A stretch of DNA of 64,000 nucleotides, taken from the NCBI GenBank assembly GCA_019448385.1, contig JAGTXO010000034.1, positions 341,429 through 405,428 of the forward strand, given 5' to 3'. Numbering within the stretch: the first letter of the stretch is position 1; each line of letters begins with the position of its first letter. The DNA is from Diacronema lutheri (Eukaryota > Haptophyta > Pavlovophyceae > Pavlovales > Pavlovaceae). The translations under genes and the position numbers were made by a program. Shown here piece after piece: positions 41,674 to 63,452 of this stretch. The notes below the pieces were generated by a model. That model had not been told where the DNA came from and searched no databases. It saw only the letters and a list, made by a program, of their open reading frames with translations.

Positions 41674-42149
41674 TCGAACAGGGCTTGGCCCCCACTTTCC
41701 CCGTTGACCCTACGTACGCTTTACTTACGTTTTAAAAAGGACCCGTATAGATGGTCAAGCCAAATCCGATCAGGGGCACGATCGCGCCCCGAGTGCAGCG
41801 CGGGCCGTTCGGAAGGACGTCCTTGTGAGGGAGCTCTTCGCGTTTGGCGAGCGGGGGAGCACGACGCGCAGCGTTGCTGCGGCGGCGTGCGGGCGGCGAG
41901 CAGCGGTCGGGCTGCTCGCGACGAGGCCGGAGCAGACGGCGCCGTGGCCGCCGGCGCAGGTGACGCGCGCCGACGAGCCGTAGCGAGCGTCCGTGATCCG
42001 CACGGCGGTTGGAGCGGGCCGGCTGGTGCGGCGCGCTCGGCCACGGGTGGCGGCGTGCACGGTCGTGCCGCGCGCGGCACGCGTCGCCAGCCGCGCGCGA
42101 CCTGGGCAGAGCCCGCAAAGCGTCGACCGCTGCGCGGCTCGGCCGTGCG
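41674..42149. other. convergent 3' flank of OSCA and the giant Fanzor gene
   Basis: No protein-coding frame is supported. It contains an AT-richer patch (about 41705-41770) that probably holds the OSCA 3' end signal. There is a 12-bp perfect palindrome AAGGACGTCCTT at 41813-41824 and a small hairpin GGGGC...GCCCC at 41773-41790. In TnpB/Fanzor elements the guide RNA is usually encoded at or beyond the 3' end of the nuclease gene, so this is the place to look for one. No guide RNA is demonstrated. Confidence 0.35.
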
Positions 42150-45100
42150 TCAACGCCGGCCGCGCTTCGGCCCGCGCGCGCTGCCGCCGCCGGCACTGGC
42201 GCTGGCAGCTCCGCGGGCGGGGGTGCGGGCGCGAGAGCCGCCGCCGCCACCGCCGCCGCGCCCGCCGCCGTCGTCGCCACCGCCGTCGCCGCCGCCGCCT
42301 CCCCCGCCGTCATCGTCGTCGTCGCCGCCGCCGCCTCCGTCGCCGTCGCCGTCGCCGTCGCCCTCGCCGCCGCCGCCGTCGCCGCTGCCATCGTCGTCGT
42401 CGTCGTCGTCGCCCTCGTCGTCGCCCTCGTCGTCGCCGTCGCACTCGTCGTCGCAGTCGTCGCCCTCGCCGTGCACCATGCGCTCCTCACGCTCCCACAC
42501 CTCGCCGCGCGCCCACCAGGCGAGCACGAGGGCAAAGCGCTCAGGCGTCGACGTGGTGTCGCGCCCGGCCGCGTGCGCCGCCATGTCGTGCACGTCGTAG
42601 AAGATGTTGCGCGCGGCGTTGTAGTCGCGGTGCACGGGCTTCTTGCCGCCGTTGCACGCCGGGCAGATGACGAGCGCGTGCACCGTGCGCGTGCCGCCCT
42701 TTGCCACGGGCAGGCGCGGGTTCTGCGCGAGCTCCGCGCCGCAGCGCTGCAGCCTGCCGCCCTTGGCGAGCCGCGGCATCGAGCAGTGCATCGACGTGTA
42801 CGGCTCGGGCACGAAGACGGCCGCGACGCCGCGCCGCCGCAGCTCGCGCAGCAGCCCCACCTGGAAGGCGGGCGGCGCGCCCTTGGGCTGCGCGCCCTTG
42901 TGGTCGCGCAGCCACTTGCCCACGCACACGAGCAGCCGGTCGCGCGTCACGCCGTCGACACAGTGCGCCGCGATGAGCGCCTCGGCGACGCGCGCCGCGT
43001 TGGACCGCCCGCCGCTGTCGCGCCGCCAGCGCTCCTTCCGGCGCGCCGGCGCGTCGTACACGTGCTCGGCGGCGCGCTCGCGCACCCGCGCGCTCTCGCG
43101 GTGGAAGGCGTGGAACTCGCCCTCGCCGAGCACCTTGGCGCTGTGCGCCTCGCCAAGCCGCGCCTCGTCCGCCTCCACGCTGAACTCCTCGCCGCGCCCG
43201 TCCTTGCGCACGCGCCGCCGCGCCGCGTTGGTCTTGGCCGTCTCGCGCGCAAAGCCCGCGGCGCGCGCGCGCGCGCGCTGCGTGAACTGCCGCCAGACGG
43301 CCGCCCGCCCGACGTGCGCAGAGTAGGTGGTGATGTTGCCCATGTTCGGGTCGGCCGCGACGACGACCGCCGCCTCGACGTCGATCGCCCGCCGCAGCTC
43401 GGAGCCGAGCGCGACGGCGATGCGCCCGTCCGGCCGGCGCCAGCGGTGCAGGACGCCCGAGCCGCCGGCCGGCGCCTGCGCCTTCGGCACGAGGACGGTC
43501 CCGACGGCGTGCACGGCGACGCCATCTGTCACCACCGACTTGACGGGCTGCCGGCCCGGGAGCGGCACGCGCGGCAGCGGCGCGAGGCCAACCCACGAGC
43601 GCCGCGCGTGCCACGGCAGATCGGCCGGCGGCCGCTCGCGCCCGGCGTAGTCGAAGACGCGGTTGGAGATGTCGAAGCGCGTCGCAAAGACCGCGTACCT
43701 GACGCGCACGTCCGACATCGGCGGGGTGTTGCCGTTTGTGCCTGTCCACTTGATCGGCTCGCCATCGTGGTCGCGCAGGTCCAGCGCCTTGAGCCGCGCG
43801 CGCAGCTCCTTGCGCTCGTCATCCGAAAGCGTCACCCAGATGGCGCTCGCGGTGAGGCGCACGTTGCGCGGCACCTGCGCGCAGCGCGCGGCGCGCGAGC
43901 GCGCGGGCGCGTGACCAACCTGGCCGCGGGGCGGCGCGCACGGCGGCGGCGCGCGCGCTTGGGCGCTCGGCGGCGGCAGCGGCAGCCGCGCCTCGCGCGC
44001 ACATTGTGCGTGCGCAGCGGCGCCACATTGTACCGCGGCGGCCGTCCGGTCAGCTGCGTGTGGATGTGCGCGAGCCGGCAGAGCAGCGCCTGCCCCTCGG
44101 CCACGTGCTGCAGGGTGCGGATCTGCACGAGGAAGTAGCGCGTCGTGTGCCGGTCGTAGTTCCACCTTTTCGTGGGCGTGCACTTGTAGTCGATCTTGTG
44201 GAGGACCATGTCGGGCAGGTGGCGGTCGAGCGCGGCGGGGCAGCCGACGCGCGCGCCCTCCACGTCGCCGCGCAGCAGCCGCTCGCACAGCTCGCGCACG
44301 CGCGCGTTTCGCTGCATCTCGGGCAGCGCGACGAGCGCCTCGTCGCGCTCGACTGCCGCGCGGACGACGTCGCGGAGCAGCCCGTTCACGACGCGCGATG
44401 GATGCATCAGGCACGCGGTGGACACCTGCGTCGCCTCCGCCTCGAGGATCTCCGTGAGGCCCACCGCGCAGACGGGCTGGACGCCCTCGGCCATCTCGCC
44501 GACGGCGCGCGCCGTCGCCGCCTTGGTCTGCGCGGCGGCTTGCTCGGCGGGCTTGCCTCGCGGCGCTGCACCGTACGTGCTCTCGTCCTTGTGCCAGCCG
44601 ATGGCCGAGAAGATCGCACGGACGGATCCCTTGTCCATCGTGGTCGACGTGTGCACGCTGGTCGACGGGCCGCCCGACGCCGCGCCGACGGCCTGCGCGC
44701 TCGCCACCGCAGCCTCGTCGCGCACCACCTTGTTGATGACGCGGTACGCCTGTGTCGTGAGCCTGTGCACGGCCGCCGCGATGCGCCGCAGCTCCTTCCG
44801 CGCACCGGGCTGCGCCGTCACCGCCTGCGGCCCCGCGTTGAGCGTCGAGCGCTTGACCACAAAGCCCGGGAGCACGCTGCCGCGCGTGCGCGCCGTCGCG
44901 CCGCCGGCGGCGCGCGCGCTCGGCGCAGCGGGCTCGTCCACGCGCGCGCGCTCGACGCCGCGCGCGCGGGGAACGCTCGGCGCGCGCGCGCCCGCGGCGT
45001 CGCGCGCGCTCGCGGCGGCACCCGCCGCGGCGCGCTTGCCCGCGGCGCCCGACTCGCCGTGCGCGCGAAGCGGCGCCGACGCCAATGCCGACGCCGCGCC

Positions 45101-48100
45101 CGCGCCGCCGCTGCCGCTGCCCGATACGCCCGCGCGCCGCTTCTGCTCGTCGCGCGTCTTGCGGAACTGGGCGACGAGGTCGCTGCTCACGTTGGCCTCA
45201 GGCTCCCACGTGTCGGCGCTCTCGTCGTAGCCCCGCCACCTGATCCGGAACTGGAACGTCACCTTCTTGCCCGCCTTGCGGCGCTCGTCGACGACCGCCT
45301 CGACCTCGTACGTGCGCGCCTCCTCGTCGACGCTCGCGCCCGCCGCGCTCGCGCCCGTGTCCGGCCACCCAGCGACCGTGCCGCCCAGCCTCTCGGCGGC
45401 CGCGCGCAGCTGCCGCTCGCGCTGGGCGGCCGCGGCGCCTCGCGCGACCAGCGCGGGCAGCATGCCCGCGCCGCCCGCGAGGCCGTGCGCGCCGACGCTG
45501 GCGGTCATCAGCGCGTCGAGGCACGCGAACGTTGCGAGCGCACGCGCGCCATCGTCGCCGCCGCGCGGCTGCGAGCGCACGACGGGCGATGGCCGCGGCT
45601 CCCCCTCGGCCGCGAGCAGCGGCCAGATCGCACTGGCCAGCGCGACGGCATGCGCGCCGACCGCGACGGCCACGTCCGCGTCGAGCGGCGCAAAGTCGTA
45701 GCGCACGAGCGCGGCCGGGCGCGAGTCGTCCGTCGGCCGGTCGGCGACGAGCAGCCCGACCGGGCGCGGCGGCTCGCCGGACGGCGCGGCGACGGGCACG
45801 CAGAGGAGCACGACGAGCAGGCGCGGCGTGCCGCCGAGCAGCGCGCGCGCGGCATCCGCCCCGTCGGCTCCGCCGCGCGCGGCCGCGGCGAGCAGCTCGG
45901 CCGCGCGCGTCGGGCCCAGCGCCGTGCGCGCGTCCTTGCGCGCGCGTGCGCGGGCCGTGTACGCGGCGCAGGCGTCGTCGAGCACCGCCGCGCTGGGCGC
46001 GGTGCCAGTCGTCGCCCACGCGCGCAGCGCGTCGCGCACCCGCGTGACGATCGCCTGGTCGACCGCCGCCTCGCCGGCAGCGTGCGCCGGCGCGCACGCC
46101 GGCGGTGCGGCGGCAGGCGCGAGCGCGGGCGCGCCGTCGGCGCCGTCAACGCCGACGGCGCCGTCGGCGCGCCGCCACGCGAGCTTCGCCTCGATCTGCT
46201 GCCGGACGGCGTGGCAGTGCCGGTCGATGCCGCGCGCGTCGTCGAGCGCGGCCAGCGCGTCCTCAGCGGCGGGACGGCCGCTCGCGTCCGCGACGGCCTG
46301 CAGGCAGAGCAGCGCGGCCGCACGCGCGTTGCACGCGCTCTGCGGCTCGGGCGCGAGCGCGAGCTCGAGCTCGAGCGGCGACGCGCCTCGCGCCGCGGCG
46401 ATCGCGTCCATCAGCACGTCCAACCGCTGCACCAGCGCCCTGTGCGCGTCGCGCGGCGCGCCCGTCGACGGCGCGCGCGAGCGCGTCGCCAGGAGCCCGA
46501 GCGCGCGCGCCGGCGCGCCCGCCGGCGTGTGCAGCACGAGCAGCGCCGCGCCCGCCAAGCTCGCGTTGCGCGTGACGAGCGCGAAGATGCGCGTCGCCTC
46601 GTGCGCGCCCACCGACGCCCAGATCGCAGCGCGATCGGCGTCCGTCTGCGCGTCGCACAGGTCGCGCACGTCGTCCGGCGCGAGCAGCGCGCCGCCGCCG
46701 GCGGAGCGCGCGACGATCGCCCGCGCCTCCGCCACGAAGACGGCCTGCGGCAGGTCGGCGTGGCGCGCGTCGACGATGGCGCGCGTCGCGTGCACGCCGA
46801 GCTCCACGCCGCGGTAGAAGGCGCGCGCGTTGGCCGCGCGCGCGTGCGCCGGCCGTCCGTCCGCGTTGCGCCTCGCGCGCGCCTGCTTGCTCGTGCGCGC
46901 GAGGCCGTCGCGTGGCGGTGGCGGCAGCGTGGCGAGGAAGCGCGCGGCGGGCGGCGGCGCGCGCACGCCGCGCTGCCGCCGTGCGATGGCCGCGAGCCGC
47001 CGGCCCGCCGCGCTGCCGCCCGCGCCGACGTGCTGCCGGCGGCCGAGCGCCGCCGGTGGCGGCGGCGGCGGCGGCGCGGCGGCGGGCGGCGGCGCGACGG
47101 CGGGCGGCGGCGCGGCGGCGGGCGGCGGCGCGGCGGTGGGCGGCGGCGCGGCGGCGGGCGGCGGCGCGGCGGCGGGCGGCAGCGGCGGCGGCGCGGCGGC
47201 GACGGCAGCACCAGTCGGCTTGTCCGCCCACGCACCCGAGACTCTGTCCCAGACCTTGCCCCATGGCGCGCGCCCACGCGGCCGCGCGAACTGCCCCGGC
47301 TCGAGCGCCTGGCCGCGCTTGGCGGCGGCGGCGGCGGCAGGGGGCGGGCGGCCGGCGCGCCAGTCGAAGACAGGTGCAACCGTGGCGGCAGGCGCCGAGT
47401 GCCGCGCGTCGGTCACAGAGCGCGTGGTGCGCGCGGCGACCGTGGCACGCCTGGCGGGCGGGCGGTGAGCAGCGCCCGCCGGCGCGCCGGCGGGCGCGGC
47501 CGCCTCGAGCCCGGCGGAGGCGCCGCGCTTGCGCTTGCGCGTGCCGCCGCGCGTGCGCCTGCGCGCGCGCCCGCCGCGCGCCCGTTCGGCCTGCGCGTCG
47601 CCAGCCGCGTCGCCGGCCGCGTCGCCGCGCCGCACGTAGACGACCGCGAACGCCTCCTCGCCGGTCCCGTCGACGCCGCCGCGCGCGCGGCGCAGGACCG
47701 ACCGCCACTGCAGCCGCCGCGCGCGGCCGGGCTCGCACGCAAACCAGCGCCCACCGCGCCTGACGACGGCCACAAAGTCGTCGTCGCGCCGCCCGCGCCG
47801 GCGCGTGCGCAGCAGCACGCACTGCACGTCGAGCCAGCCCTCGTGCCAGTCGGCCGTGCTGGGGGCGACGCGAATCGACTGCGGGAGCTCGACGCCAAAG
47901 CCGGCGAGGCGCACGATGTGCGCGACGATGACGCTCGAAATGGCGGGGGCGCTCGACGGGTCGCCCGCTGCAGCGAGCACCGCCCCGCCCCAGTGCTCAC
48001 GCGTGACGCAATCCGCGTCCTCGACGTGCACGTGCGCCACGCTCGCGCCGAGCTGGTGCAGCAACGCGCAGATGTCGGCGTCGACCGTCCTCTCCTCCTC

Positions 48101-51100
48101 GGCCGCCTCGGCCGTGCCGCGGGCGGCGGCGTCGCCTGCCGGCTGCCCGAGGTACGCGATCGCCCGCTCGACGGCCGCGCGCTCCGCACGCGCTGCGCTG
48201 TCGATCGCCGCATTGCCGACGGGCGCGCGCAGCGCCGCGATCGCGTCTTGCAACGCCGTCGCGTCGCCCGTCGCCGCCGCCGCCGTCACCGCCGCCGCGC
48301 TCGCGGTGCCGTGCGCGACGGCGTGCAGCGCGGCGGCGCGCGCGGCGGGGATGCGCCCGTCCAGCGCGAGCACGAGCGGCGGCCCGGCCGGCGTCTGCTG
48401 CCGCCGGTGCCGCCGGCTCGCAGCCGGGTGGTCGGCGCGCGCGCGCTCGAGCCGCGCGCGCCGCTCGACGACGCGCGCCCAGAAGGCCTGCACCCTCGGC
48501 TGCGCGAATGCAAGCCAGCCGGCGCCGCGCGTCACGACGTGCACGACGATCCGGTCCTCGTGCCTGAGGTACTGCACGTAGAGCGCTTTGCTCACGCCGA
48601 GGACGTGCATGCCGAGCTGCAGCTGATCGCGGTGCGGCTGCGGCGGCCCGTCCTCGTGCGCCGTGGCGCCCGCCTTGGTGAGCGTCTTCACCTCGACGAG
48701 GACCTGCTCGTTGTTTTCGGGGAGGATGGCGAGCCCGTCCGGCGAGAAGGCGAACGGCGCGCTCTTGTCGTGCGGGTCCGCACGCACCATCGGCAGGTTG
48801 CACACGACGGTGATGCCGTACGCGGCCGCCAGCTTGCGCAGCGCGACGGCCTCGCCGAGGATGCCCGCGGTCGTCGCCTTGGTCCGCACCTCGCGCCGCC
48901 GCCGGTGCACGTACTCGTCGGTGAGCGTCTCGTGCGCGACGCCGGCGTTGTCGTTCACGACGTCGCCAACCTTGCTGCCCGTGACCTCCTCCCATCGCTC
49001 GTCGTGCCAGCGCGGGCTGCGCTGCGCGGGCGCGCCCGCGCCGACGGCGTCGAGCACGCGGCGCAGCGCTGTGCCGTCGGGCGCAGCAGGCACGCGCGCG
49101 CGGTCCTGGGCCTCGCGAGCGTCGAGGACGCGGCCCGTAGTGGAATCTTGGGCTAGGTCGAGCTTGCTCGCCTCGCCGTAGCGGCTCTCCAGCTGGCGCG
49201 GTGCGTCGGCAGGGCCGCCGTCCGTGCGCGCACCCGACGCGCCCGCCAGTGCACGCGGCGCAGCGTCCGAGGCGCCCGCCGCGCCCGCGCCGCCGCCAAT
49301 CGCGCCAGCGCACGCGCGCGCCGCGACCTGCGGACGGCCAGCCGCAGGGACCTCGTCCGCTCGGCCGGCCGCTGCGTCGGCCGTCCGCTTGGCCACCTCG
49401 CGCACGTCTCCGAGCGCGAGCGTGGCTGGCGCCGTCGAGTTCCCGTGGCGTTTGTTCCAAAACTCGAGCAGCCCGCCAAGGAAGGGCGTGCCCGTCGGGC
49501 GGTCCTCGGGCACCTCCGCCAGGATCGCGTCGACGCGCAGCGCGGCCGCCACATCGCAGAACGCGCGCGCGGCGCGCGCCATCCGCTCGGCGCGCGCGCC
49601 GCCGTCGTCCGCCGCGCGGCGGATGGCGTGGCTCACGTGCGCGACGCGGAGCGAGACGACGGCGTGCGCCGGCGCGTCGGCGCCCGTGCCGAGCGTGTGC
49701 CGCCGGATGGCCAGCTGCCCATCGCCCATGCGCGGCGGCAGCGACGCGCACGCCGCGACGGTCGTCGTGCCGGCCGCGCTGTCGCACAGCCAGCTCGCCT
49801 CGCCGCCGCCCGCAAACTCAAAGGTCGCGAAGCCCTCGCGGCCGAAAAGCGCGACGAAGTGGTCGAGCACCGCCTTGTTGATCGCGCGCGCCGCCGGCCG
49901 CGTCGATGCGCCGCGGGCAGCGCCACCCGCCGCGCCGCGCGCATCGCTGCACGTCGCAGGGCAGGTGCAGCCGGACGCGCGCACGCCGTCCGACCGCGTC
50001 CGCGGCAGCTCGAGCTCGCGCACCTTGGGGCAGAACCAGAGCGGGTTGGACGCCTCGAGGCACAGCACGACGAGCCGCCCGTCCGTGCCGGCCAGCGCGC
50101 GCGCGTCGCGCAGCAGCTCGACGGCGAGCTCGGACGTCGCCGCGTGCACCGCCGGCTCGCCCGTCGCGCGGTCGGGCGGGAAGAGGCCGCCGCCGACGAG
50201 CGGGCTGGGGCAGCGGCCGAGCATCACGAGCAGCGGCGGCGGCGGCGTCTGCGGCGCCTGCTGCCCGACCGCAGCCGCCGTCAGCCCGGCCAGGTCGGAG
50301 CTCGTGCGGAGGGCCTTGAGCGCGACGCGCGAGCCGGTGCCCGCCTGCTCGGAAAACGTGGCGAGCATGGCGCACGTGCTCGCCCTCGCGCCGCACTGCC
50401 AGCTGACGCGCGCGAGGAGGCCTTCCAGCGTGTCGTTTTCGCGCGGCCGCGTGACCGCGTCGAGCGCCGCCGGGCCGAGCTGGAGGCTGCCGGGCGTGAC
50501 GCACAGCACCGCCTCGTGGTAGGCGCGCAGCAGCTCCCTCGGCAGCTGCTCGGCGGGCGTCGCCGCCTGCCCGCCCACCCACCGTGCACCGTGGCCGCCG
50601 TCGCCCGCGCCCGCGAGCCGGACCGCCGGCCCGCCCGTGATCGCCGAGGTCGGTGGCGTGCCGAGCGCGTCGACGAGCGCGCGCACGGGCGCGACACGCC
50701 TGCGCGCAGCGTCCGCGCCGACGGCGAGCGCGGCGATCTGAGCGCCGTCCCATGCGCGCTCCCTCGCGTCGTCCCGCGCGGCCGCCGGCGCGGCGCCCGG
50801 CCGCGCGCCGGGCGGCACCGCGCACGCCGCCGCGACGACCTCCGCGCGCGCGCCGGCGGCGTCGGGCGCGTGCAGCTGCGCGAGCGCGCCAAAGAGCGCG
50901 GCGGCCGAGCGGTAGCGGCCGTGCGCCGCGACGAGCGCGTAGAGCACGCGCAGCGCGGCCACGCCCGCCTGGTCGGGCGCGTCGCCAGCGATTTGCTCGA
51001 CCTCCCACGTGCGCGTGGGCGGCGGGCTGCCGTCGGCCGGGTCCGGACGCAGCGCCCACGCGCGCTCGACGATCGCGTTGAACACGCCGTGCGCGGCGCC

Positions 51101-52723
51101 CTCGTCAAACTCGGCGGCGCCCGCCGCGTGCGCGCACCACCCGTGCACGCGCGACGTGGGCGCGTCCACGGCGCGCTGCACGACGAGCACCGCCGGCCGG
51201 TCGACGCAGCCGAGGCTCACCGCCGCGTGCTTGCCCTCGAGCAGCGCCGCCGCCGCAGCCTCGACCAAGGCGTCATCAGGCGCGTCGCCGACGACGACGG
51301 CACAGCCGTCGCCGTACTCGGCCTGCATCGCGGCGACGCACGACGCGACAAAGTCGCCGCCCGCGGCCGCCGCGTGTCGCGCCGCCAGCATCCGGCGCGC
51401 GATGGCAAGCCAGACGTACTCGGCCGGCGCGCGCGCGGCGCGCGCGCGAGGCGCGCCGGCCGCGCCGCGTGCGCCCGCGCGTGCGCCTCCAGCGGCCGCA
51501 ACGGCCGAGGCGGCTGGAGCGGCGGTGAGCGTGCGCCGCGCGCGCTTCGCCGGCCGCGTGATGGGCGATGCACCCGCCATCGCACCGCCCGCAGCAGCCG
51601 GTGCGGCCGCCACAGCGCCCGCCGCAACGCCACTCGTCACGACGCCCGTGGCGGGCGGCGCGGCGGCGGACGTGGCCGCCTCGACGGGCGTCGCGCAACT
51701 ACCGCCAGCGGTCGCGGACGCGCCCGGCGACGCGTCGGCGAGGAGGTGGCGCAGCACGCCGCGCGCGAGCGCGACTCGCACGGCGAGCGTCAGCGCGCGC
51801 AGGCGGTCGGAAGGCGAGGCGTCGCGCTCGGCGTCGGCGGACGTGGCGGCAGCAGGCGGGGCGGCGGGCGGCACGGCGGCGGGCTGGGCGGCCGCCGGCG
51901 CAACCTCGTCGGCCTTGGCCAGCCAGACGAGCCCGGCGACTGCGAGCACGACGCTGTACGCGCCGACATCGTCACCCGCAACGCGCGCCAGCCGGGCGTG
52001 GGCGTCGGCCTCGGACACGGCGACGTGGAAGAGCACGTCGTCGCGGGCAGCTTGCTCGGCAAACTGACGCAGCTGCTTGGCCATCGTCACGCCGGCGACG
52101 CACGCCTCGCCCGCCTCTGCCTCGACCTGCTCGTCCTGGCCGATGGCGGACGCGCCGGCCTCGGCGCCAGCGTCGAGTGTCCGGCGGCGCTCGAGGGCGA
52201 AGCCACGCACACAGACGCGCTGGAGGCCGCCGAGCGCGCCCGCCTTCTCGTGCAGCGCGCACGACAGCTCGACCACCGAGTCCACGCGCCTCGCGGCGGC
52301 GCCCCCCCGCTCGCCGCGCGTGGCCGCGCGCACGACGAACACCGTGAATTGCGCGCGCTTCGCCGCGCGCGCCGACGCGCACGCGTGCTTCAGGAGCCGG
52401 CAAAGCGCGGGCCTTTGCGCCGCTGCGCCCCGCGTGCACAGCAGCAGTTGGCCGCGCTCGTCGCCCAGCTCCTGCTCGACGGCGGCCTCGAGCGCGTCGT
52501 CCGTCAAATCGCCGTGCTCCGTCGAGGCGAGCGCGCGCGCAGCCGCGAGCGCCAGCTCGCCTGCGCCCGCGCGCCGCCGGCGGCGCGCACCGGCGGGCGC
52601 GTGCGGCGCCGACGCGTGTGACGACGCCGCCGCGTCCGCGCGCGCACACGCGGCGCGCAACGCCTCACGCGCCGAGGCGGCCGCGCGCGCCCTGGGCGCG
52701 AGCTTCAAGAACGTGCGCGCGGC

Positions 52724-52796
<73 letters not shown>

Positions 52797-55700
52797 TCGC
52801 CCGCGTCGCCGGCCGGCGGCGGCGGTGGCGGCGGTGGCGGCGCGGCCACGGCGGCGGCAGCAGCGGCGGCGGCGGCGGTGGCGGCGGCGGCGGCGCCCAG
52901 CGCGGGCGGCGGCGGCGTGGCGGCGGCGGTGGCGGCGGCGGTGACGCCAGCGGCGGCCTTGGCGCCGCGCGTCTGCGGCGGCGTTTCGGCGCCATCGGGG
53001 CTGCCCCCGCCACGCACCGCGCTCGTGACCGCGCAGACGCCGCCCGGCGCACGATCGCTGGCCGCGCCGGTCAGCGCGACGCGGAGGCGCTCGCCGACAG
53101 CGTACATGTCCGCCACGCTGAACGTGCGCGGCGCGGACGAGCAGCCCGCCGCGGCGAGCGCGTCGTTGAGCGCGCCCACTATCGCGAGGCCGCACGTCGC
53201 GCCACGCTGCGCCGCCTCGTTGAGCAGCAGCGCGCGGCGCACGCGCGAAATGTCGAGACCCGCCGCGTGCAGCGTGGCAGTTATCGCCTTGGCGAGCATG
53301 AGCGCCTGCCTGCAGGGCGACGCGAGCGTGTCGACGAGCACCGCGTCGTAGCGATGCTCGCCCGCGCGCGCGACGCGCACAAGGCGCAACGCGGTGAAAT
53401 GGCCGGAGGCGAGCTGCGCGCCGTCGTCACCGCCCGCGCCGCCGCGCTCGTCCGACGGGCTCCACACGCCGATGACAGCCTGCGTTGTCGCCTCGCTGCG
53501 CAGGCGGTGCAGCAGCGCGGCGCGCTCGGCGTCGTCCTGAAACACCGCGGGTTGCGCGGCGAGCGGCACGTGGCAGACATGCCCGCCGCCGGCCTGCCCG
53601 TGCACGCGCAGCACGACCTCGCAGCACGCGTCGACGGTTGAGGCGAGCATGTCGCCGCTGGCGATGCGCTCCACCTCTGCCTGCGGGAGGCCGGCGCTCG
53701 CGGCGGCGGCGGCCAGCCGGCGCGCAGCCGCGTCGCCCGCCCACGCAAGCAGCGCCGAGTTGGCGGGTTGGAGGGGAAGCTCAAGGGCGGCTGGTTCGGT
53801 GGCGGTAGCCTCGTTGGCAACGGGCACGTTGGCGGTGCGCGCGTTGGCGGCGGGCGCGGCGGCGATGGCTGGTGGGGCGGAAGACGCGCCCGCGGCGGCG
53901 GGCGCGGACGCGGCAGCGGCAGCGGCTAGTGGGGCGGGGAAAACGCCGTCGGTGGCAGGCGCGGAGGCGAATGCAGGAGCAACTAGTGGGGCGGGAAAAT
54001 CGGCGGCAGGCGCGAAGGCGGATGCAGCAGCGGCTAGTGCGGCGGGGAAAACACCGTCGGCGGCAGGCGCGAAGGCGGATGCAGGAGCGCCCAGCGGGGC
54101 GCAGAAAACACCGTCGGCGGCAGGCGCGAAGGCGACAGCAGCAGCGGCCAGTGGAGCGGAGGCGCAGGGCCACGCGCGCGCCAGCCGTGCAAGCCCAAGC
54201 CGCGCGCGAGCGACGCACGCGCCGATGGCCGAGGCGGCGGCGCAGGCCACGACGTGGCCTGGCACCGGTGTGGCCAGCCGCTCGCGGGTGTGCACGTCGA
54301 GCCGCGCCCCACGCCAAGAGCGGCGGCGCGCTGAACGGAGGCGCGCGACCCCGATCGATCCGCCCGCGCACGCGCGCGCCGGCTCAGTGTGGCCAACGCG
54401 CGCCGCTATGCAAGGCGCGCGCGCGATAACGGCGGCTGTCGGCCGTGGCGTGCGCGTGGCGGCGCCGCGGCGACGGGCGCGGCACACGAGCCGCTCGGGC
54501 GCGCCGCCGCCGCGCGGCACGATGTCGAGCAGCACGGTCACGCCGCGCGCGCGCGCGACCGCCGTGCACGCGAGCCGCACGGGCAGCGGCGGCCCGTCCG
54601 GGCGCGCGAGCGCCGCCACCTCGGCGTCGGTGAGGCTGTGCAGCTCGCGGCGCGCGCGCGCGAACGCGGCGATGTCCGCGCGCAGCTCCGCGTCCGTGCC
54701 GAGCGCGGCACGCGCGTGCACGGGGAGCGACGCGCGCAGCGCGTGGAGCACGCCGCCGCGCGCGCCGCGCGGCGCCGGCGCGCGCTCGCGCTCAGCGCGC
54801 GCGGCGCGCGTGAGCTCGCGCACCGCGCGCGCGAGATTGCGCCGCGCGGCCGCGACGGGAGGGCTAGGTGCGCGCGCGCGCCGGTTGTAGCGCGGCCGCG
54901 CCGAGTCGAGGGGCGGCGGACGCGGTGCGTACGCCGCGGCGCGGCCCGCGCGCCAAAAGGCCGGCGGCGGGCGCAGCTCCGTCGCGTCGACCGCGGCCGC
55001 GAGCGCGCCGAGCGCGGCGTCGCTGTCGCCCGCCGCGTCGGCCGCGTCGACGAGCACGAAGAGCGCGCCGAGCGCGCGCGACGCGGCCGCCTGCGCGGCG
55101 GTGGGGCGGGCGCAGGCAGCGACGCATGCGGCCGCCATGCCGCGCGCCGCGGCGAACGCCGGTGACGTGACGGCCGCGCCGATGGCAACGGCGGCGGCGG
55201 CGACGGTGGAGGCGGCAGCGCCGGCGATGGAGGTGGCAGCGGCGGCGGCGCTTGCCATCGCGCGGCGCGCGAGACGCGAGGCGCCACCGACCGCCGCCGC
55301 CGCAGCGCGCGCTGCGCGCGCGCCGGTGGCGCGCATCGTCGCCGCGCCAGGCGCCGCCGCGCCGACGCCGCCGGCGCCCGCGCCGTCGCCGCTCTCGGCC
55401 GTGCAGGGCTCCGATGGCGAACCCGGCGTGCGCTGGCGCGTGATGCGCGCGCCGAGGCGCGCGCTCCGCGCCGCGCGGCCGGCGACGTCGAGGAAGCGCC
55501 GTGCGCGCGCCGCGCGCAGGCCACGCGCGCGCGGCGGCGCACCGACAGGCGCCGAGCGCCGCGGCGCGCACGCCGGCGCGTCGCTGTCGGGTTGCGCAGC
55601 GCGCGCGCGGGAACTCGGCGCGGCGTGTGCGGGCGGCGGGCGCGCGCCCGCGCGGCGCAGAGGCGCGAGGCGCCGGCCGCAGACGAGGCGTGTGCGCAAC

Positions 55701-58700
55701 CAGGACGGCGAGGGCCGCAGGGCGCCGTCGACGTCGCGCATCGGCGGGCCGCGAGCCCGCCGCGCAGCCGTGCGGCGCGCGCGAGGCGCTCGGCGGCGCG
55801 CGCGCCGCACGGCGCGCGCGGCGGCGCGCACGCCAGCGACGGCTGCGGCCACGCCGCGCGCCAACACGGCCGCGGCGTGCGCCATCGCACCGAGCACGGC
55901 GCGTGGCGCGCCGAGCAAGCGCAGCAAGCGCGACGCCGTCGCGCGCGCCGGCGCACCGTGTGCAGGGGCCTCGCCAGCGCCAGCACCGACGCCGCCATCG
56001 CCGCAGCCGCAGGTGGCGTCGCCGCCGCCGCAGGCGTCGCGACGGACGCCGCCGCCGCCGAAACAACCGCCGCACACGTCGCCGCCGACGTTGCCACCCC
56101 AGCCGCCGTTGCGTGCGCAGGTGGCTGCGGCGCGTGCGTGCGGGAGGCGTGCCGTGCGGCGCGCATCACACGGGCTGCGCGACGCGAGCGACGCCGCCGG
56201 GGTCCCCGCTGCGCCAGGCGCGCCGTGCGCGCCAGCCTCGCCGGCCTCGCCGGCGCGCGGTCGCGCGCTCGCCTCGACGTGGCCGCCTCCGCCGCCATCG
56301 CCGCCGTCGAACCGGGCGGCGGAGGGCTGCCGCTCGAACCGCTCGTCGGCGTCGGCCGCCACCGCCGCCTCGCGCTCCGCCGCCGCGGCGGCCGCACGGC
56401 GCGCGTGGCGGAGCGCGCGGCCGCCGTCCGCTGCGCGGCGTGGCGGCGCGGGCGCGGGCTTCGGCGCGCGCGGCCCCTCGGCGCGCTCGCGGAGCACGGC
56501 GAGCGGCGTGCCCGTGGCGACGCTCGTGCAGACGCGCCGCAAGGCGGCGCTTACGCACGCGTGGACGACGCGCGCCGTCCGCTTGTCGGCGGCGCGCGCG
56601 GCGCGGCGCGCGGCCTTGGCGGCGGCCTTTTTGGCGCGCCTCTGCTCCGCCTGCTCCGACAGCGCGCGCGCCTGGCGCTCGGCTGCGAGCGCGTCCTCGG
56701 GCGAAACGGTCGGCCTCGGCGGCCGCGCGCGCGCGCTGCGACGCTGCGCGCTGCGGCGGTCGGACGGCGGCTGCCGCGGCGGCGAGGACGGCGAGCGCGA
56801 GCTCGGCGTGGGCGACCAATCGCCGCTGACGGTTGCGAGCGGCGCAAACGGGTTGTCGTCCCCGCGACCCGCGGCGTGCGACAGTGCACGCGGCGTCGGG
56901 CGCCGGCCGACCGCTGGCGGGCCCCACTCGGACGGCGGCTCCGAGGGCGAGCGCGCCGTCGGCGCCGCGCGTTGCGCGGCCGGCGGCGCCTCCCGGTCCA
57001 GCGCCGCCTGCTCTCTCGCCGCGGCCTGCTCGTCACCCTCCGGCACGCCACGCGGCGCGAGCACCGCGGTGGCGCAGCGCGTCGCGTTGAGCAACGCCGC
57101 CTCCATCTGCCGCACGCTGGCCTTGGCGCACGCCACACCCTGTCTCGCCCGGCGCAGCGCCTCGTGCGCGCGGCGCACATCCGCGTCGGCATCTTCGCGC
57201 ATGCCAAAGTGCGCCTGTTGCAGCCGCAGGTCCGCAGGGCGCCCCTGCGCGCGAGGGGCACGGGCGCGGCGGCGCGCAGGTGACGGAGCTGGCGCGCCGT
57301 TCTGCGCTGCGCGCACGCCAATCGACGGGCGCGCGCGCGGCGGGGCGCGCGCGCGCGCGCGCGCGCGCGCTGCCTACCCAGCCGCCGGCCGGCTCGCGCG
57401 AGCGCGCCAGCTGCTCCGCCGCCTCGGCGTCGAGCACGCGCTGCTGCGCCTCCTCCTCGCCCAGTGCAGCGAGGTGCAGCCGGCGGGCTGCCTTGCGGCA
57501 GTTGCCCTCCGCCTTGCCCACGGCCTTGCGCGCCGCGTCGACGGGGTCGTCGTTGGCTCTGGCGCGCCTGCGCTTGCCCTTGTCGGCGGGCGGCGGCTTG
57601 GCGCGCTGCAGCGTGCCGAGCGCGTCGTCGGCTCCGCGCGCGGCCGCCCGCGGGCGGCGGGCCCCAAAAAGCGCACCGGTCGCCGTGCGCGCCGCGCAAG
57701 CAACGACCAGCGCTGACATGCCGGCGAAGACCGCACCGCCCAGCGCCACGGTTGCCACGATGCGCAGCGTCCCGTGCGCAAGCTGCGCTGCCTCCGCCGC
57801 TTTGGCGGCCTCGCGCGCGCGCGCATCGGCGGCTCTCATCTCGTGCAGCAGCCCGGCCGCGCCGCTCGCGCCGTCGCGGCCGCGCGCGAGCTCGCACAGC
57901 ACCGCCGCCGCGCGCCGCGTGGGCTCGCGCGCGAGCAGCTGCGCGCCGCCGTCGGGGCGCAGCTTCTCAACGAACTCGACAAACGTCGCGTCGCGCCAGA
58001 GGGACATGCGGAAGGCCCTGTGCACCGCCCCCTCCTGCTCGCGCATCCGCCGTGCCGCCCGCCTGCCGTCGCGCGCGTGCGCGTGCGCGGCCGCGTCGAA
58101 TCCCGCGACGCCGCGCTGCGCGTCGCGCGCGGCCGACGACGGCGCCGCCGCGCTGCCCGCCAAGGGCGCCGCAGCGGCGACGCGCGCGTGCGGAGCGACG
58201 GGATCGCCGGCGGCCGGCGGCTCGGCGCGCTGCGGCGTGCCGTTTGCTCCGCGCGCGGCCGTCCCGGGGGAGATGGCCGCGATGGCGCCGCCAGCCGCGC
58301 CGCGCGCCAGCCACGCGCATAGGCTGCCGACGAGCTCGCCGAGACCCCCGACGGTCGCCGCGGCGGCGAGTGCGCCGGGCTTGCCGGCCGACAGCGGCTC
58401 GCGAGCGTCGTCGTCGCAGCCGCCGGCACCCGTCTTGGCGAGTGCGTCGCGCTCGCCCTCGACGCCCGCCACGACCGCCGCCCCTCCGTCGTCCGCCGCG
58501 CCGGCCGCGCGCGCGGCCGGGCGCAGAGGAGGCGTGCCGGTGCAGCCGTCGCCGCTCGTCTTCGCCGTTTCCTCCACTTTGGTCACTTCGTCGCCACCTG
58601 CGCCATCTCCGACGCCGGGGCCCTTGGTCACGCTTGCCGCCATGCGCGCCGTGCCCGCCGGCCAGCCCGCCGACTGCTCGAGCGCGGCGGCGAGCGGCGC

Positions 58701-61053
58701 GACGCGCGTCGACTCGGGCGCGCTCTCGTCATCGGGCTCGAGCGCGTTGTGCAGGCGCGCGAGCGCGCGCTCGACGGCCGCGGCGCCACTGCCGGGGGCG
58801 CGGCTCGCCGCGCGCACCGCGCGCCGCCAGGCCGGCGCGAACATGAGCGCCGGCTCGAGCGCCGCGAGCGCGCGCGCCTCGCGCGCGTCGCTCGCGCCGA
58901 GGCGCGGCGGCACGCGCGCGGCTCCGCGCGGCGCGGTGCCTCGGAAGCGTGGGCTCAGCGTGTAGGCGAGGTGCTGCGGCACGCCGCGCGCCTCCGCGCG
59001 CGCGCGTCCGTCCTCGACCTCGCGCCGCGCCTTCGCGATCGCCGGCGTGGCGCGCGCGAGCCAGTCGGGGTCGGCGGGCAGGTGGATCACGACGAGAATC
59101 GGCGCCCAGTCCAGCCGCGGGTTCTTGTGACGGTCGGGCACGACCCACACGAGCAGCACCGTGCCCTCCGCGCCGCACGCCGCCTCGTAGATCCTGGGCT
59201 GCGAGCGCCAATCGGGCCTGACGCGCAGCGCCCGCGCGTGGTCGATGGCGGCGGCGCGGTCGCCATTGAAGTGAACCGTCGTCACCTCGCCGATGACGGA
59301 CCGGCCGGACCGCCAGCAGAACACCGCGTCCGCCGACCCGCCGGCGATGGCCGCGAGCGATTCGGGCGCGGCGAGCCGCGGCAAGCCCTCGAAGGCGGCA
59401 AAGTCCTCGTGCGCATTGTACACGCCGCCCCAGCCGTCGTGCGCGTACGCGCGCGCGGCCGCTCGTACCGCGCGCGGCTGGTTCTCCACGCCCGACGTCA
59501 TGTGCCATGTCGTCCCCGCGAAGCCGGGCTCGCCCAGCTCGGCCCGCACGACGGTACCGTACCCCGCGCCCTGCGTCGGGGCGGCGAGGTGGTGCATGCC
59601 CGCGCCGGTCACGCCCTCCGTGCGCTGCCGCGTGACGATCGTGCCCGTCGCGTGCGCGAAAAGCGTGTCGACCACGGCGGGCGCGCGCCCGCTGTTCGCC
59701 CGTAGCCGCGCCCTGCCCGCTTTTAGCTGCTCGGGGTCCTTGGCGTCGTACACGCGCGCGTCCGCGTCGCCCTCATCAGGCGCAGTGTAGACGCAGCGGC
59801 GTTCGAGCGGCGCCGAGCCACCGCCGTCCGCCGCCGCCGGCGAGGTTGGCGCCGCGCCCGCCGCCACCGCGCTCGTCGCCGCCGTGCCCGTCGCCACCGC
59901 CGCAGCCGCCGCGCCCGCGGGGTCGTCGTCCCCGTCCTCCGCGCCCTCCCCGTCGTCAGCGGTGGTGGCGTCGCCATCGTCCCCGTCGCCCTCGCCCCCG
60001 CCGAGGCTGCTGAATGGTCGGGGCCCCCACGCCGAGGCGGCGCGCCGCTGCGGCGCACGCGGCGGTGGCGCTCGCGACGGCGGCCTTGGCGCCGCCGCGC
60101 CGCGCGGCCTGGCCGCCGTCGACAGCGCGCGGCCTGCAGCGCCCGTGAGCGCGTCGAGCGCGGCCGTGCGTGCGATGCGGTCGTCGGGCGCGCGCAGCGC
60201 CGCCTCGACGGCCTGCAGCAGCCCGTCGGGCGCGGATCCGCCGACACTGGCATCGCACGCCTCGGCGAGCCGCGCGGCCTCGGCGAGCCGCGCGGCCTCG
60301 CGGGGTGAACGGGCCGAAGCGCCTGGCGCGGTCGCCGAGCAGAGCGCCGATGGCGGCGCGGAGCGTGCGCGCGCGGGTCTCCTCGTACGCGGCCGTCGTG
60401 AGGCGCGCGAGGCGCGCGTCCAAAGCCTTCTTGATGTCGACAAGGACACTCGCGCGGCGGCCGTAGAGCGTCGATGCGCTCGCCACGACCTCGGCCGCGA
60501 CTGTTGCCGCGGCGAAGCAACACGCGGCCCCACTCTGCGGGGGCGCCTTGAAGGCATCGATGGGCGGCGCTGTTCTGCCGATGCGCTGCGCAAGCTTCTT
60601 GATGAGCACGCCGGCCGCCGTGGCGTACGCCGATTCGCCGTTGCCCAAGGTGCGCGAATCGGCGAGCAGGGCGAGCGCGGCGCCGGGCGGCGCGCCGCGC
60701 TGCGCGGGCGGCGCGAGGAGCAGGTACGCCGCCGTCCAGTGCACGAGGCCGCTGGACGCGCGGAGGCAGAGCGGTAGCACGACCACGAGCACCTGCCCAA
60801 ACCGGTCCGCATCCGCGCATGCTTTGCGCAGGTTGCGCAGCGCCACCTTGAGCGCATGCTGCGAGCACCCCGTGTCGCCCACCCTAACCCTGCTCGTGCC
60901 GAAATCCGCGTAACGCAGCAGGGCGATGAGGCAAGTGGATGGGACCACGTGGGGGTGGGTATCTCCCGGCGACAGAATGGTGCTGAGGGCCAGCGAGAAA
61001 CTGTCCGAGCCGCCCCGCCCGCCGGGCAAAGCGTCCTTCACGGAGTCCTCCAT
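42150..61053 (-). CDS. giant multidomain protein: protease, YqaJ nuclease, chromodomain, Fanzor
   Basis: About 6,213 residues from three exons: 61053-57378, 57244-44003, 43874-42150, with phase-0 GT-AG introns of 133 and 128 bp; exon 1 needs a one-base correction at the C-run 60302-60305. N to C: an unknown N-terminal region; an uncharacterised folded-looking segment (about residues 420-650, coding 58950-59650); a hydrophobic helix (VATVALGGAVFAGMSALVVA, about 1100); low-complexity Arg/Ala regions and an Ala-rich repeat; an intact C48/Ulp1-like protease (His2507, Asp2530, Gln2571, Cys2576); further helical, possibly degenerate protease-like modules; a YqaJ exonuclease (Asp4061, Glu4076, Lys4078); an AT-hook-like RPRGRAPWGK; a chromodomain (about 5200-5250); a Fanzor nuclease (Asp5814, Glu5996, Asp6056) and an acidic tail. 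Shared frame across 13 kb and clean joins support one gene; cleavage into parts is inference. Mobile or viral origin is likely. Confidence 0.8.
42500..44800 (-). other. Fanzor (eukaryotic TnpB-like) nuclease region of the giant protein
   Basis: C-terminal about 750 residues. After helical regions the sequence YNVAPLRTHN|VPRNVRLTAS (the bar marks the intron) resembles the Fanzor core start. RuvC-I is VVAADPNMGNITTYSAHV (Asp5814). The bridging region is Arg-rich. RuvC-II is AVFVPEPYTSMHCSM (Glu5996), where E-x-x-T-S next to the first zinc cysteine is the alternative glutamate position described for Fanzors. The zinc ribbon uses HC, RC and CPAC pairs, and RuvC-III is HRDYNAARNIF (Asp6056), nearly identical to the TnpB D-x-N-A-A-x-N-I motif. 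All catalytic acids are present, so it may be active. Family knowledge: Fanzors are RNA-guided DNA nucleases of eukaryotic mobile elements. A GPKRGRR basic patch ends the protein. Confidence 0.88.
43875..44002 (-). other. intron 2 of the giant gene (inside the Fanzor core)
   Basis: 128 bp, donor AAT|GTGCGCGCG, acceptor GCGCAG|GTGCCG. The flanking frames differ and the join restores a Fanzor-like segment. The length is not a multiple of three, so splicing is required to make the nuclease. Confidence 0.85.
45160..45330 (-). other. chromodomain of the giant protein
   Basis: EEARTYEVEAVVDERRKAGK followed by VTFQFRIRWRGYDESADTWE and PEANVSSDLVAQF. This is a clear chromodomain with the three aromatic-cage positions (Tyr, Trp, Tyr) that bind methylated lysine. 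In retroelements and some DNA transposons such domains guide insertion to heterochromatin. Confidence 0.9.
48400..49060 (-). other. YqaJ-type exonuclease domain of the giant protein
   Basis: SPRWHDERWEEVTGSKVGDV starts the domain, then GEAVALRKLAAAYGI, FAFSPDGLAIL (Asp4061), VLVEVKTLTK (Glu4076, Lys4078) and PHRDQLQLGMHVLGVSKALY. This is the S..R/W..TGS, E, SPDG, ExK, QLQ order of the YqaJ/lambda-exonuclease family found in phages and large eukaryotic DNA viruses and in transposons. All catalytic residues are present. Confidence 0.88.
52722..52797 (-). repeat. GGC/GCC trinucleotide run encoding poly-Ala
   Basis: About 24 consecutive triplets (GGC on the plus strand) encode an alanine run in the giant protein between the protease and downstream modules, next to a poly-Pro run. 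Confidence 0.95.
53150..53760 (-). other. C48/Ulp1-like cysteine protease domain of the giant protein
   Basis: LASGHFTALRLVRV carries the His (2507), YDAVLVDTL the Asp (2530), and AAQRGATCGLAIVGAL the oxyanion Gln (2571) and nucleophile Cys (2576). The residue order and spacing (23 and 46 residues) fit the Ulp1/adenain fold. It could remove SUMO-like modifiers or cut the giant protein itself. Confidence 0.75.
53930..54165 (-). repeat. coding tandem repeat (Ala-rich, about 21-residue unit)
   Basis: Four to five imperfect copies of a 60-66-bp unit containing SAFAPAADGVFPAPL-like sequence directly N-terminal to the protease domain. It is probably a flexible linker. Confidence 0.85.
57245..57377 (-). 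other. intron 1 of the giant gene
   Basis: 133 bp, donor TGG|GTAGGC, acceptor GCGCAG|GGGCGC. It moves the reading frame by one base and links the coiled-coil region of exon 1 (EEEAQQRVLDAEAAEQLA) to exon 2 (ADLRLQQAHFGM). It contains a run of alternating CG. Confidence 0.8.
60302..60305 (-). other. apparent +1 frameshift in exon 1 of the giant gene
   Basis: Upstream of this four-base C run (coding sense) the protein-like frame begins at the ATG 61053; downstream it continues one base over. Exon 1 is one base longer than a multiple of three, so a single extra C explains both facts. A tandem 18-bp duplication coding Glu-Ala-Ala-Arg-Leu-Ala follows immediately. It could be an assembly error, a real inactivating indel, or programmed frameshifting at CCG CGA G. 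Confidence 0.65.
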
Positions 61054-62958
61054 CTGCAGACTGTGGGCACGTCAGTGTCCGGATGGCGGCCCGGATGATA
61101 CTTGGGAGAATTTACATGATGCCCTGGAGAATGCCCCGCTCTCCCACAACCAGGACCCGCCAGCGCGCCGAGCCTACTCGTTTGCCCGCGCCGCCTCTCT
61201 TTGCGCGCCCGAGCGCGGCCTCCGAGCGCGGCCAACGTCCTCCGGGGGCGTGCATCGTGGCTGCTCGGAGGGGCTGCGACGCGGCGAAAGCTCGCTGCGC
61301 GGCCGCAACGTGAGCGCGCGCGCGCGGCCGCGCGCCGGCCTGCGCTGCTCTGCACGGCCGCGCGCCGGCCTGCGCAGCCTCGTCGCGCAGCGTGAGCGCG
61401 AGCGCGCGCGAGGTGAGCTCGGCGGATGGGTGCGCGGCGGCGTTGGCGGCGGGTGCGGCGGCAGGCTGGGCGGCGGGTTTGGACGGAGAGTGTCGGGGAA
61501 GAACGGGGCGCATCCTGGCTGGGAGTTGGACGGCGCCCACCACGCGCTGGCGGATCCTGGTTGCCACCACCACCCCCCCCCCCCCCCCCGGAGACGAGGA
61601 CCAGGGGCATGGCCGACTCGCTGCGCCGCACAGCGCGCGGCGCGCGGCATGCTGCGCGACCTCAAGCACATCCAGCCGCGCTCCGCCCACGCAACGCGCG
61701 CAATGCCGCGTTGCACTGCAGGTGTGCACGTGCGGCTCTCACGCGCACTGTGTTGCACGAACGGCATCACGCCACCGAGCTGCGTCCGGACCACGCGCCG
61801 CGCGCAGGCGACCACACAGGGGCGCGCCGCGCCGCGCGTGCGCGCCCTCGCAACCGTTGCAGCACGCTCTGCCTTGCACTGCGCCGAGCCGCCGCGCGCT
61901 GTGCGCGTGCATGCAGGGCGCACGCGTGCGACGAAGCGCGCGCGCGGCGAGGCGCGCGGGCGGCTCGCTGCGCGGGCGGCAACGCGCCCAGCTGCGCCCA
62001 GGCCAGGCGCGCGCCCGCGAGTGCCACCGGGACGCACTGCCCCCGCCGGGGTCGCCGCGCGCTCTGTGTGTGCGCTCGCGCGCTGCGAGCGCGGCGGAAC
62101 GTTCGTGCATGGCGCGAAGAGCGCGGCACCCGAAGACGGCTGCCCCGAGCCCGCGCCGGGTGGCAGCGAGCGGCGGCACCTCCTCGGCGAGCCCGCCCCG
62201 CGCCTTCCCCTCCACGTGGCGTTTTGAGGCAGACGGACACGCGCCCACACTGCGACTGGGCACGCTGCTCGAGGCAGACACGCACCCAACGCGCGCGCAC
62301 CACGCGCCCGCGTCGGCGGGCCGGTGTGAACGAGCGAGAGCTCGGTGTCGCCAACGGGGGCACGGGCGCGACTTCGGTCCGCCTCTCGACGGACGCAGGC
62401 GACGCTGCCGGGAACTTCCCCGACGCCTGCACATCCAGGGCTTCGAGGTACAGAGCTGGCAACAGTGCCGCTCGTCACCGATGAGGCGGCCAAGCTCGCT
62501 ATCCTTGCTGCCCTCGGCTCCACCAAACAGCCGGGCGACCCAACGGTTCGTGATCGCCTGGCCGCCAGGTGCGAACCGCGCCCGTGCAAGCGCTTCACCC
62601 GCATTCTCCGCCCCGCTGCGGACGTCCGCCTGCCGGCCGCGAACACGGCCGGTGCGCGTTGCCGCCTGGCCCAACACGAAAACCCGCCCGCCCCCGAGGC
62701 CGCAGGTCCTACCTGCCCAAGCGCAGCCCAACGGCACGCAGACAGCCCGCCTTGGCAACCGACTCGTGCGCGAGCGCTCCGCCCTCCACAAGAGCCTGCC
62801 CCACGCCACCGCCGACGCGGAGCCAGCGCAGCCGACGCCCCTCCGCGACGCTCGCGCCGCAAGGCGCAAGGGCCCCGGCGAGACGGCGTCAACCAAGCCC
62901 GCCGCTGGCACAGCGCCGGCACCCGGAGCCCACCCCAAGCCCCCGCGCACGTGCCTCG

Positions 62959-62959
<1 letters not shown>

Positions 62960-63004
<45 letters not shown>
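62960..63004 (+). repeat. poly-C tract of about 44 bases
   Basis: The longest uninterrupted C homopolymer in the window; it is followed by GATCGG and not by an acceptor AG. Confidence 0.95.
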
Positions 63005-63005
<1 letters not shown>

Positions 63006-63408
63006 ATCGGCGGACCGATTGCGTTTTGGTGCGCCAGGCTCAATGCGCCATCGCAGTGGCGGGCCCGCAGACGCAGACGCTGACATGCCCAACGCTGGGC
63101 ACTGAGGCCGCAGGCCGGCCCTCCTGGACCTGGCGGGCGAGCTGCCCGCGCAGCGGCCACGCGAGCCTCGCACTGACCGTGGCGGTCGCTGCCACCGTGA
63201 TAGCTGCGGGTGCGGCGGCCTTGGCCCCAACCCCATCATCCGTCTTCATCCCCGCCCTGCTCGCGCTCGCGGCCTACGTCGGCAATCCCTGCACCGGGAT
63301 CCGCCCCGCGAAGTCCACACAAGACTTATCCGTGCTGCACGCCAGCCGCGCGCCGCCGACGCGCGCCGCTCCCACACGCTCACCTCCGTTTCCGCGGGCG
63401 GCCCAACG

Positions 63409-63452
63409 CCCCCCCCCCCCCCCCCCCCCTCCCCCCCCCCCCCCCCCCCCCG
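63409..63452 (+). repeat. poly-C tract with one T
   Basis: Two runs of about 20 C separated by a T, followed by GGCAGG, which could serve as a splice acceptor for an unrecognised plus-strand gene. Confidence 0.95.

Follow-up and report, generated by a model that had tools for sequence, protein, structure and literature searches.

Fanzor nucleases are already known from transposons (PMC3627910), ubiquitin proteases from Helentrons (PMC9741609) and YqaJ exonucleases from ISL2EU (PMC4482050), and very large Helitrons have been described (PMC6431247), as passages of these reports state; what Fanzors do biologically is, according to a passage of PMC10432273, unknown. Here we describe a stretch of 64,000 nucleotides from the haptophyte Diacronema lutheri (contig JAGTXO010000034.1, positions 341,429 to 405,428; the whole stretch is hereafter the window) in which a minus-strand gene at 42,150-61,053 belongs to a mobile element of ~31 kb that has recently multiplied. 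We are strongly confident of the architecture of this young element: a Fanzor, a chromodomain and an exonuclease share one frame, and upstream of them lie a helicase and a domain resembling ubiquitin carboxy-terminal hydrolases (UCH). According to passages of the genome paper (PMC8379373), repeats make up 22.9% of the D. lutheri genome, those annotated being mostly long terminal repeat elements and long interspersed nuclear elements (LINEs); the word stem ‘transpos’ is absent from its main text.

A recently multiplied element

The contig that holds the window (C19) ends at 405428, that is, at window position 64000 and inside the element. Because the contig stops there, the part on the 5′ side of the gene (~9 kb in a copy on contig C30) is missing here; the C30 copy, at 646409-677466, has a length of ~31 kb. 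Comparison of the window with 16 internal copies defines the end beside the Fanzor gene: the match is lost at 41740-41745 in 15 copies and at 41757 in one, with identities to the window of 99.1-99.9%. Mean identity over 46 loci from 42 copies is 99.5%, which argues for a recent burst.

Exact copies of a 24-mer from the 3′ end of the element are found at 194 places in the genome, with differing flanks. Other exact 24-mers are found at 155 (exon 1), 148 (63.66 kb), 194 (helicase) and 162 places (near the far end). Truncation at the 5′ end in the manner of LINEs was considered and rejected: the 18-mer first used for the far end (4 exact matches) had included flank, and it was inner 24-mers that gave the figures of 162 and 194. 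When 30 of the 3′-end places were sampled as loci, 26 matched the window over at least 1 kb with the Fanzor end; at the other four (L044, L052, L055 and L057) the last 141-383 bp of the element stand alone, at 93-95% identity and without the Fanzor gene. Lengths were obtained for 49 copies by pairing two end markers by eye: 26 measure 29.8-31.6 kb, 13 are ~21 kb, six are ~25-26 kb and four are of other lengths. Taking 26/30 of the 194 places times the mean copy size, the family may total roughly 4.5 Mb, a figure that copies cut by contig ends would lower. About one tenth of the genome may thus be a single element family, one left unnamed in the passages of the genome paper (PMC8379373).

Contigs C1, C12, C8 and C14 start or end at the 3′ end of the element or one base off it, probably through assembly breaks at a repeat. 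Attachment to telomeres was considered for contigs beginning at the element end and set aside, such breaks being the simpler account.

Ends and insertion sites

The two ends of the element read CATCTATAC and (C/G)TATATA. Among 12 far ends fetched, 11 finish in ...GCGCC(C/G)TATATA or a variant of it, and one (L082) is without that ending. The two ends resemble each other in a short S-TATA(TA)-G pattern seen by eye. As to terminal inverted repeats, the window holds no inverted copy of the 3′ end, and the pairs shown are of low complexity.

Insertion leaves no target duplication: over 13 flank pairs, those of the C9 and C30 copies included, the longest repeat common to both flanks is 3 bp, and no fixed flanking base is present in 38 distinct flanks. 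One copy (L015 and L074, at ~767.4k and ~799.6k of C11) interrupts a host gene, between HHKYN and FGMFTVLWD, that from its motifs is presumably fatty-acid-hydroxylase-like. Joining the flanks minus two bases gives a deduced empty site at which the host frame is restored; thus no duplication arose on insertion at this site either. The preliminary description, made from the window, had proposed ‘perhaps a giant transposon or endogenised virus locus’. The sharp 3′ end, the high copy number, the absence of a target duplication and the interrupted host gene all favor the transposon.

A long frame that joins exonuclease, chromodomain and Fanzor

Three long frames lie on the minus strand, at 57,033-61,037, 43,832-57,373 (4,513 aa) and 42,150-45,197, and they had been joined into one gene of ~6,200 residues with two phase-0 introns. 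Two GT-AG introns of that phase can be placed, of 163 and 128 nt, with sites chosen by eye. The junction across the second (...RTHN/VPRNV...) is read identically in an annotated D. lutheri protein, KFE25_006464; the frames and the exon 2-3 junction of the model accordingly stand, and intron 1 is a proposal from the nucleotide sequence. KFE25_006464 (P0005, on contig C69) is a host gene model with SAM domains that includes part of the element's Fanzor in spliced form.

The stop-free state of the 4,513-codon frame is not due to chance, since 41.5 stops are expected (P ~1e-18, independent bases). With training on 44,003-53,014, codon scores in the gene frame are positive for all bins from 44.1 to 53.7 kb (mostly the training set) and again from 57.3 to 60.3 kb (outside it); between 53.7 and 57.3 kb they are weak, with dips. 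The frame is also kept in other copies: 105 of 150 scored YqaJ matches, drawn from 203 candidates, are in frames 4,000 codons long or longer, and 108 of the 115 Fanzor matches assigned to the main family by bit score (a borderline row of 31.1 bits and frame 325 being left out) lie in frames of at least 574 aa, the length of exon 3.

At the DNA level, then, there is good support for a predicted chain of exonuclease, chromodomain and Fanzor with a length of ~3,800 residues or more. The fusion, which had been put forward as a new element architecture, is supported by the exon-2/exon-3 frame, continuous in many copies. The full chain of 6,200 residues is possible. It is unproven because coding signal is weak at 53.7-57.3 kb, exon 1 is missing from a subfamily of 21 kb, and in the window copy exon 1 is itself broken by a one-base length difference at ~60.3 kb, where both other copies compared are open. 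Coordinates are given in Table 1.

Table 1. Features of the element in the window (window positions)
Feature	Position	Strand	Evidence or remark
Element portion inside window	41745..64000	minus	matches of other copies end at 41740-41745; contig end = 64000
Outer end adjoining Fanzor gene, GTATAG on plus strand	41745..41750	plus	exact 24-mer at 194 places, differing flanks
405-nt segment, Fanzor stop to element end; expected place of a guide RNA scaffold (inference)	41745..42149	minus	position only
Subterminal hairpin GGGGC...GCCCC, ~30 bp inside end	41773..41790	minus	sequence; paired in folds, overall not significant (z -1.13)
Exon 3, Fanzor catalytic part, 574 aa, acidic/Gly-rich tail	42150..43874	minus	open frame
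TNB zinc-ribbon/RuvC-III region (RDYNAARNI)	42603..42842	minus	PF07282 27.4 bits, cut-off 26.3
Predicted RuvC-III Asp (RD)	42624..42626	minus	alignment with second Fanzor family
Predicted catalytic Glu, rearranged position (E, six residues, C)	42804..42806	minus	alignment with second family; rule in passages of PMC10711439
Predicted RuvC-I Asp (DPN)	43350..43352	minus	invariant with second Fanzor family
Intron 2, 128 nt, phase 0	43875..44002	minus	spliced junction matches annotated protein KFE25_006464
N-terminal third of Fanzor part	44003..44881	minus	extent judged by eye
Exon 2, 4,404 codons without stop	44003..57214	minus	open frame; coding signal continuous 44.0-53.7 kb
Chromodomain	45158..45310	minus	PF00385 E 5.7e-12
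YqaJ / RecE-like exonuclease domain	48566..49027	minus	phrog_434 5.6e-17, TIGR03033 3e-5, PF09588 0.031
Ulp1/C48-like motif set (GHF, VDT, QRGATCG)	53177..53404	minus	by eye, without library support
Open, weakly coding stretch linking both halves of gene model	53700..57300	minus	codon scores
Proposed intron 1, 163 nt, phase 0	57215..57377	minus	sequence only; GT-AG
Proposed exon 1	57378..61053	minus	one-base frame break ~60.3 kb in window copy
N-terminal 240 aa, Ulp1/C48-like motifs (VHW, ADSR, PPQSGAACC)	60334..61053	minus	by eye, without library support

Fanzor, exonuclease, chromodomain and protease-like motifs

A Fanzor with RuvC and zinc-ribbon parts had been placed at the C-terminus. It is recognized there by the TNB family PF07282 (E 3.8e-6), just over the cut-off; the TnpB model of NCBIfam scores far under its own (12.1 of 100 bits). 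When the window Fanzor is aligned with a second Fanzor family from this genome, the RuvC D-E-D residues (D175, E357 and D417 of the exon-3 fragment) and RD-x-NAARNI prove common to both. Passages of PMC10711439 describe, for Fanzor-related TnpBs, a rearranged Glu six residues before a zinc-finger Cys and a first Cys pair of the form CxxC; unlike that rule, the first Cys pair of the window Fanzor is not CxxC. Its RuvC-I motif is DPN as against DPG in the second family, and so departs from the DPG/DxG motif, of which both search patterns given in those passages keep the G. A profile built from the window and the second family matched a Cas12f1 structure (E 3.6e-5), and TnpB-like structures only at 0.37-0.42; the single sequence gave only 0.35. 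We infer that the window Fanzor may be capable of RNA-guided DNA cleavage. With 8,000 best candidates scored, the Fanzor part had two matches, one of them 99% identical and the other a D. lutheri protein; the exonuclease-to-Fanzor stretch had none among 1,302 candidates that are comparably giant. Such searches need shared words and may miss diverged relatives.

The second Fanzor family (C1:150300-156428, L083 and L002, with copies L003-L008) carries DPG, E-x6-C and RD-x-NAARNI and looks stand-alone: no Pfam domain was found in the 2.9 kb fetched upstream, yet the frame is open for 1,518 codons. Its 3′ end, ...GCGCCCTATATATG, has a strong palindrome and is similar to the main element at its far end.

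The chromodomain and the YqaJ exonuclease, both of which had also been named from the window, are borne out by library matches. For the exonuclease this is the RecE-like phrog_434, the matches to TIGR03033 and PF09588 being under cut-off; the motifs GE, SPDG, VEVK and QLQLG were found by eye, and a search of the stretch against structures by sequence matched no exonuclease structure.

The cysteine protease fared less well. By eye, the order His-Asp-Gln-Cys can be made out in each of exons 1 and 2, but library searches of the motif segments returned no family or structure, and the structure model of the proposed protease has a mean pLDDT (predicted local distance difference test) of 44. The suggested self-processing accordingly stays at the level of motifs. 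Further stretches that look, by eye, like degenerate Ulp1-like or ubiquitin-protease-like modules lie on the minus strand at 45101-53000.

A Helitron-type helicase upstream

Past the window, and so beyond what had been described, the element continues with a helicase and a ubiquitin-hydrolase-like domain. The helicase, read in the C30 copy, matches PIF1 (E 1.8e-24) and Pif1_2B (5.2e-13), and by sequence it is of Helitron type: the Helitron domain PF14214 is present in seven of the 17 relatives listed, with 8,000 best candidates scored. Near it lies a UCH match (8.4e-7, over cut-off). A profile of seven RepHel proteins matches the helicase half in five pieces and three frames; its Rep half has no match in six frames of window 41745-64000 and the 12.6-kb upstream part of the C30 copy, and Pfam scans of the element frames returned no Rep (HUH) domain. 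The sole Helitron_like_N (Rep-domain) match found in the genome is at C63:35738-36019 (E 8.3e-23), a possible partner in trans. Nor was any DDE transposase family found by Pfam in the frames scanned, antisense frames below 60 kb lying outside the scan; judged by those frames, the element is not an ISL2EU.

A possible cut-and-copy mechanism

TnpB lies at the end of its element. The Fanzor gene has a TnpB-like position at the very end of the element described here, and a guide RNA might be read out of the 405-nt tail and onward into adjacent DNA. Fanzor and guide RNA would then cut the insertion site in its sister or empty version; resection of the break would fall to the attached exonuclease, and the helicase would assist in copying. 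The chromodomain would tether the complex to chromatin, and in this way the element would be copied back in or retained where it is. That Fanzors cut at the sister chromosome, and so aid spread, is suggested in a passage of PMC10432273. New insertions are found at unrelated flanks; movement to new sites would therefore need a further activity, of which none was found in the element, and this could be a Rep in trans or a domain of the giant protein that has escaped recognition.

We regard this sequence of guide RNA, cutting, resection, copying and tethering as doubtful in itself; taken as one explanation, the architecture and the mechanism together come close to an even chance but fall short of it. 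A stronger version, in which the giant protein would be a self-contained RNA-guided homing machine that replaces a conventional transposase by combining a Fanzor break, resection by the lambda-type exonuclease and helicase-driven break-copy replication of 31 kb, seems to us quite improbable. Nonetheless, here is a Fanzor that has an end-resecting enzyme and a chromatin reader in its frame, inside a young element of high copy number. The ‘cut and copy’ idea can therefore be put to the test in the native host, and the locus offers a naturally occurring candidate for the fusion of an RNA-guided nuclease with a resection enzyme.

Alternative explanations

A number of results weigh against the account given above. 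Variation among the copies gives no sign of purifying selection: 84 non-synonymous, 27 synonymous and 0 stop variants (~2 stops expected) over the 46 loci from 42 copies are near neutral. Among the other YqaJ matches the one that scores highest, on C71, has 99% identity and is too close for a selection test. The frame of the helicase shifts several times in C30, so that either its introns are not placeable or the gene is broken; the part compared in a copy on C10 has no length difference from C30. Both structure predictions are poor. Folding of the 405-nt tail is not significant (z -1.13 in two runs), no Rfam family was matched in the window, and the tail is not more conserved than exon 3 (20 distinct variants in 410 sites as against 58 in 1,722). 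Finally, exon 1 is less widespread than the 3′ end by the 24-mer counts given above, and its 24-mer is absent, among the matches listed, from all 13 of the 21-kb copies.

This last point bears on the extent of the gene. The model of ~6,200 residues might be an over-join of two adjacent genes, an N-terminal one at ~61.05-57.3 kb and an exonuclease-chromodomain-Fanzor gene that starts within 53.7-57.3 kb. The weak coding signal with dips in that interval speaks for such a division, as does intron 1, for which homologues give no support; moreover the 13 copies of ~21 kb (out of 49) that miss the exon-1 24-mer keep a Fanzor exon frame of at least 574 codons, and nine of them are among the scored YqaJ matches, with exon-2 frames of 3,762-4,193 codons. 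The exon-1 part is therefore dispensable for copies to arise. Yet the exon-2 frame runs free of stops to 57,373 in the window and attains at least 4,000 codons in 105 of the 150 scored copies, and the proposed intron 1 does have GT-AG borders and phase 0. We consider two genes a substantial possibility, though one on the lower side of even. That the Fanzor is an ordinary gene, translated alone with the chromodomain (~1,075 aa) from an internal start at 45,508 or 45,463, we think unlikely. Two Met codons do stand just upstream of the chromodomain, and the second family offers a Fanzor that looks stand-alone in the same genome, though its frame is open for 1,518 codons; but the coding signal runs from 44.0 to 53.7 kb without a stop, and an upstream gene would therefore have no end. 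A single frame from exonuclease to Fanzor remains our preferred reading.

The nature of the element is open to a similar debate. It could derive from a Helitron or Helitron2 and be moved by a Rep in trans, the Fanzor and the rest being cargo, and for movement to new sites this is the leading rival. The Helitron-type helicase, the lack of a target duplication, palindromes near both ends and the Helitron_like_N match on C63 would all suit such an origin. Against it, the helicase half was found and the Rep half was not in the element parts searched; Helitrons end in TC...CTRR, and such ends are absent from the element, as is any fixed base in the 38 distinct flanks. In its favor, too, passages elsewhere report Fanzor1 in a Chlamydomonas Helitron2 (PMC3627910) and Helitrons of up to 39 kb (PMC6431247). 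We give this derivation serious weight, if less than an even chance: by the tests made the element is not a Helitron (no Rep found, different ends), and it may work like one. An endogenised virus or virus-derived element, by contrast, is extremely improbable. Its large size, lambda-type exonuclease and helicase might recall one, and the exonuclease stretch also matches, at 9.6e-8, a PHROG family with the name virion structural protein, more weakly than it does the exonuclease families. Pfam scans, with antisense frames below 60 kb outside them, found no capsid, packaging ATPase or DNA polymerase (PolB) family; Phage_cement_2 gave one match under cut-off (0.044), and three regions of the element have no relatives in viral contigs. 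The viral half of the earlier proposal is thus not supported, and we retain a giant transposon.

A separate repeat family is present elsewhere in the window: near two other insertion sites (L021 and L024) there are further copies of segments of 227 and 813 bp from 26203-27015, at identities of 99.6 and 100%.

Comparison with known systems

The in-frame union of a Fanzor with a lambda-type exonuclease and a chromodomain is not described among the matches listed from the openly licensed literature; nor, among these, is a Fanzor-chromodomain fusion, and where both words occur together in passages of one paper they are unrelated. Single features of the element do have counterparts, which we compare here with passages of the reports cited. 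With ISL2EU it shares the YqaJ exonuclease; the DDE transposase, terminal inverted repeats, AT duplications and ~4.8 kb size of ISL2EU were not found here (PMC4482050). Helentrons with deubiquitinases likewise combine a Helitron-type helicase with ubiquitin-protease-like domains (PMC9741609), but here the match is UCH-like rather than OTU or VTD, and neither Rep nor AP endonuclease was found. Ghost Fanzor elements of Spizellomyces (PMC10432273) find a parallel in the four of 30 sampled places where an element end stands without the Fanzor gene; in contrast to those ghosts, it is the 3′ tail alone that is seen here, far ends not having been found in the stretches fetched.

The Helitron2 elements with Fanzor from Chlamydomonas (CRe-1,2,3; PMC3627910) are likewise algal, have hairpins near both ends and leave no target duplication at complete insertions. 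The D. lutheri element differs from them in its terminal bases, in having no Rep domain found and no TTTT target, in its far larger size and in its giant fused gene. Fanzor1, as defined by Bao and Jurka in 2013 (PMC3627910), also resides in transposons, and its motif, D-X(125,275)-[TS][TS]-X-X-[C4 zinc finger]-X(5,50)-RD, is found in the window Fanzor as well. The latter departs from Fanzor1 in having DPN in place of DPG and a first Cys pair other than CxxC and, above all, in its setting: it lies in frame with an exonuclease and a chromodomain, in a giant gene of an element of ~31 kb.

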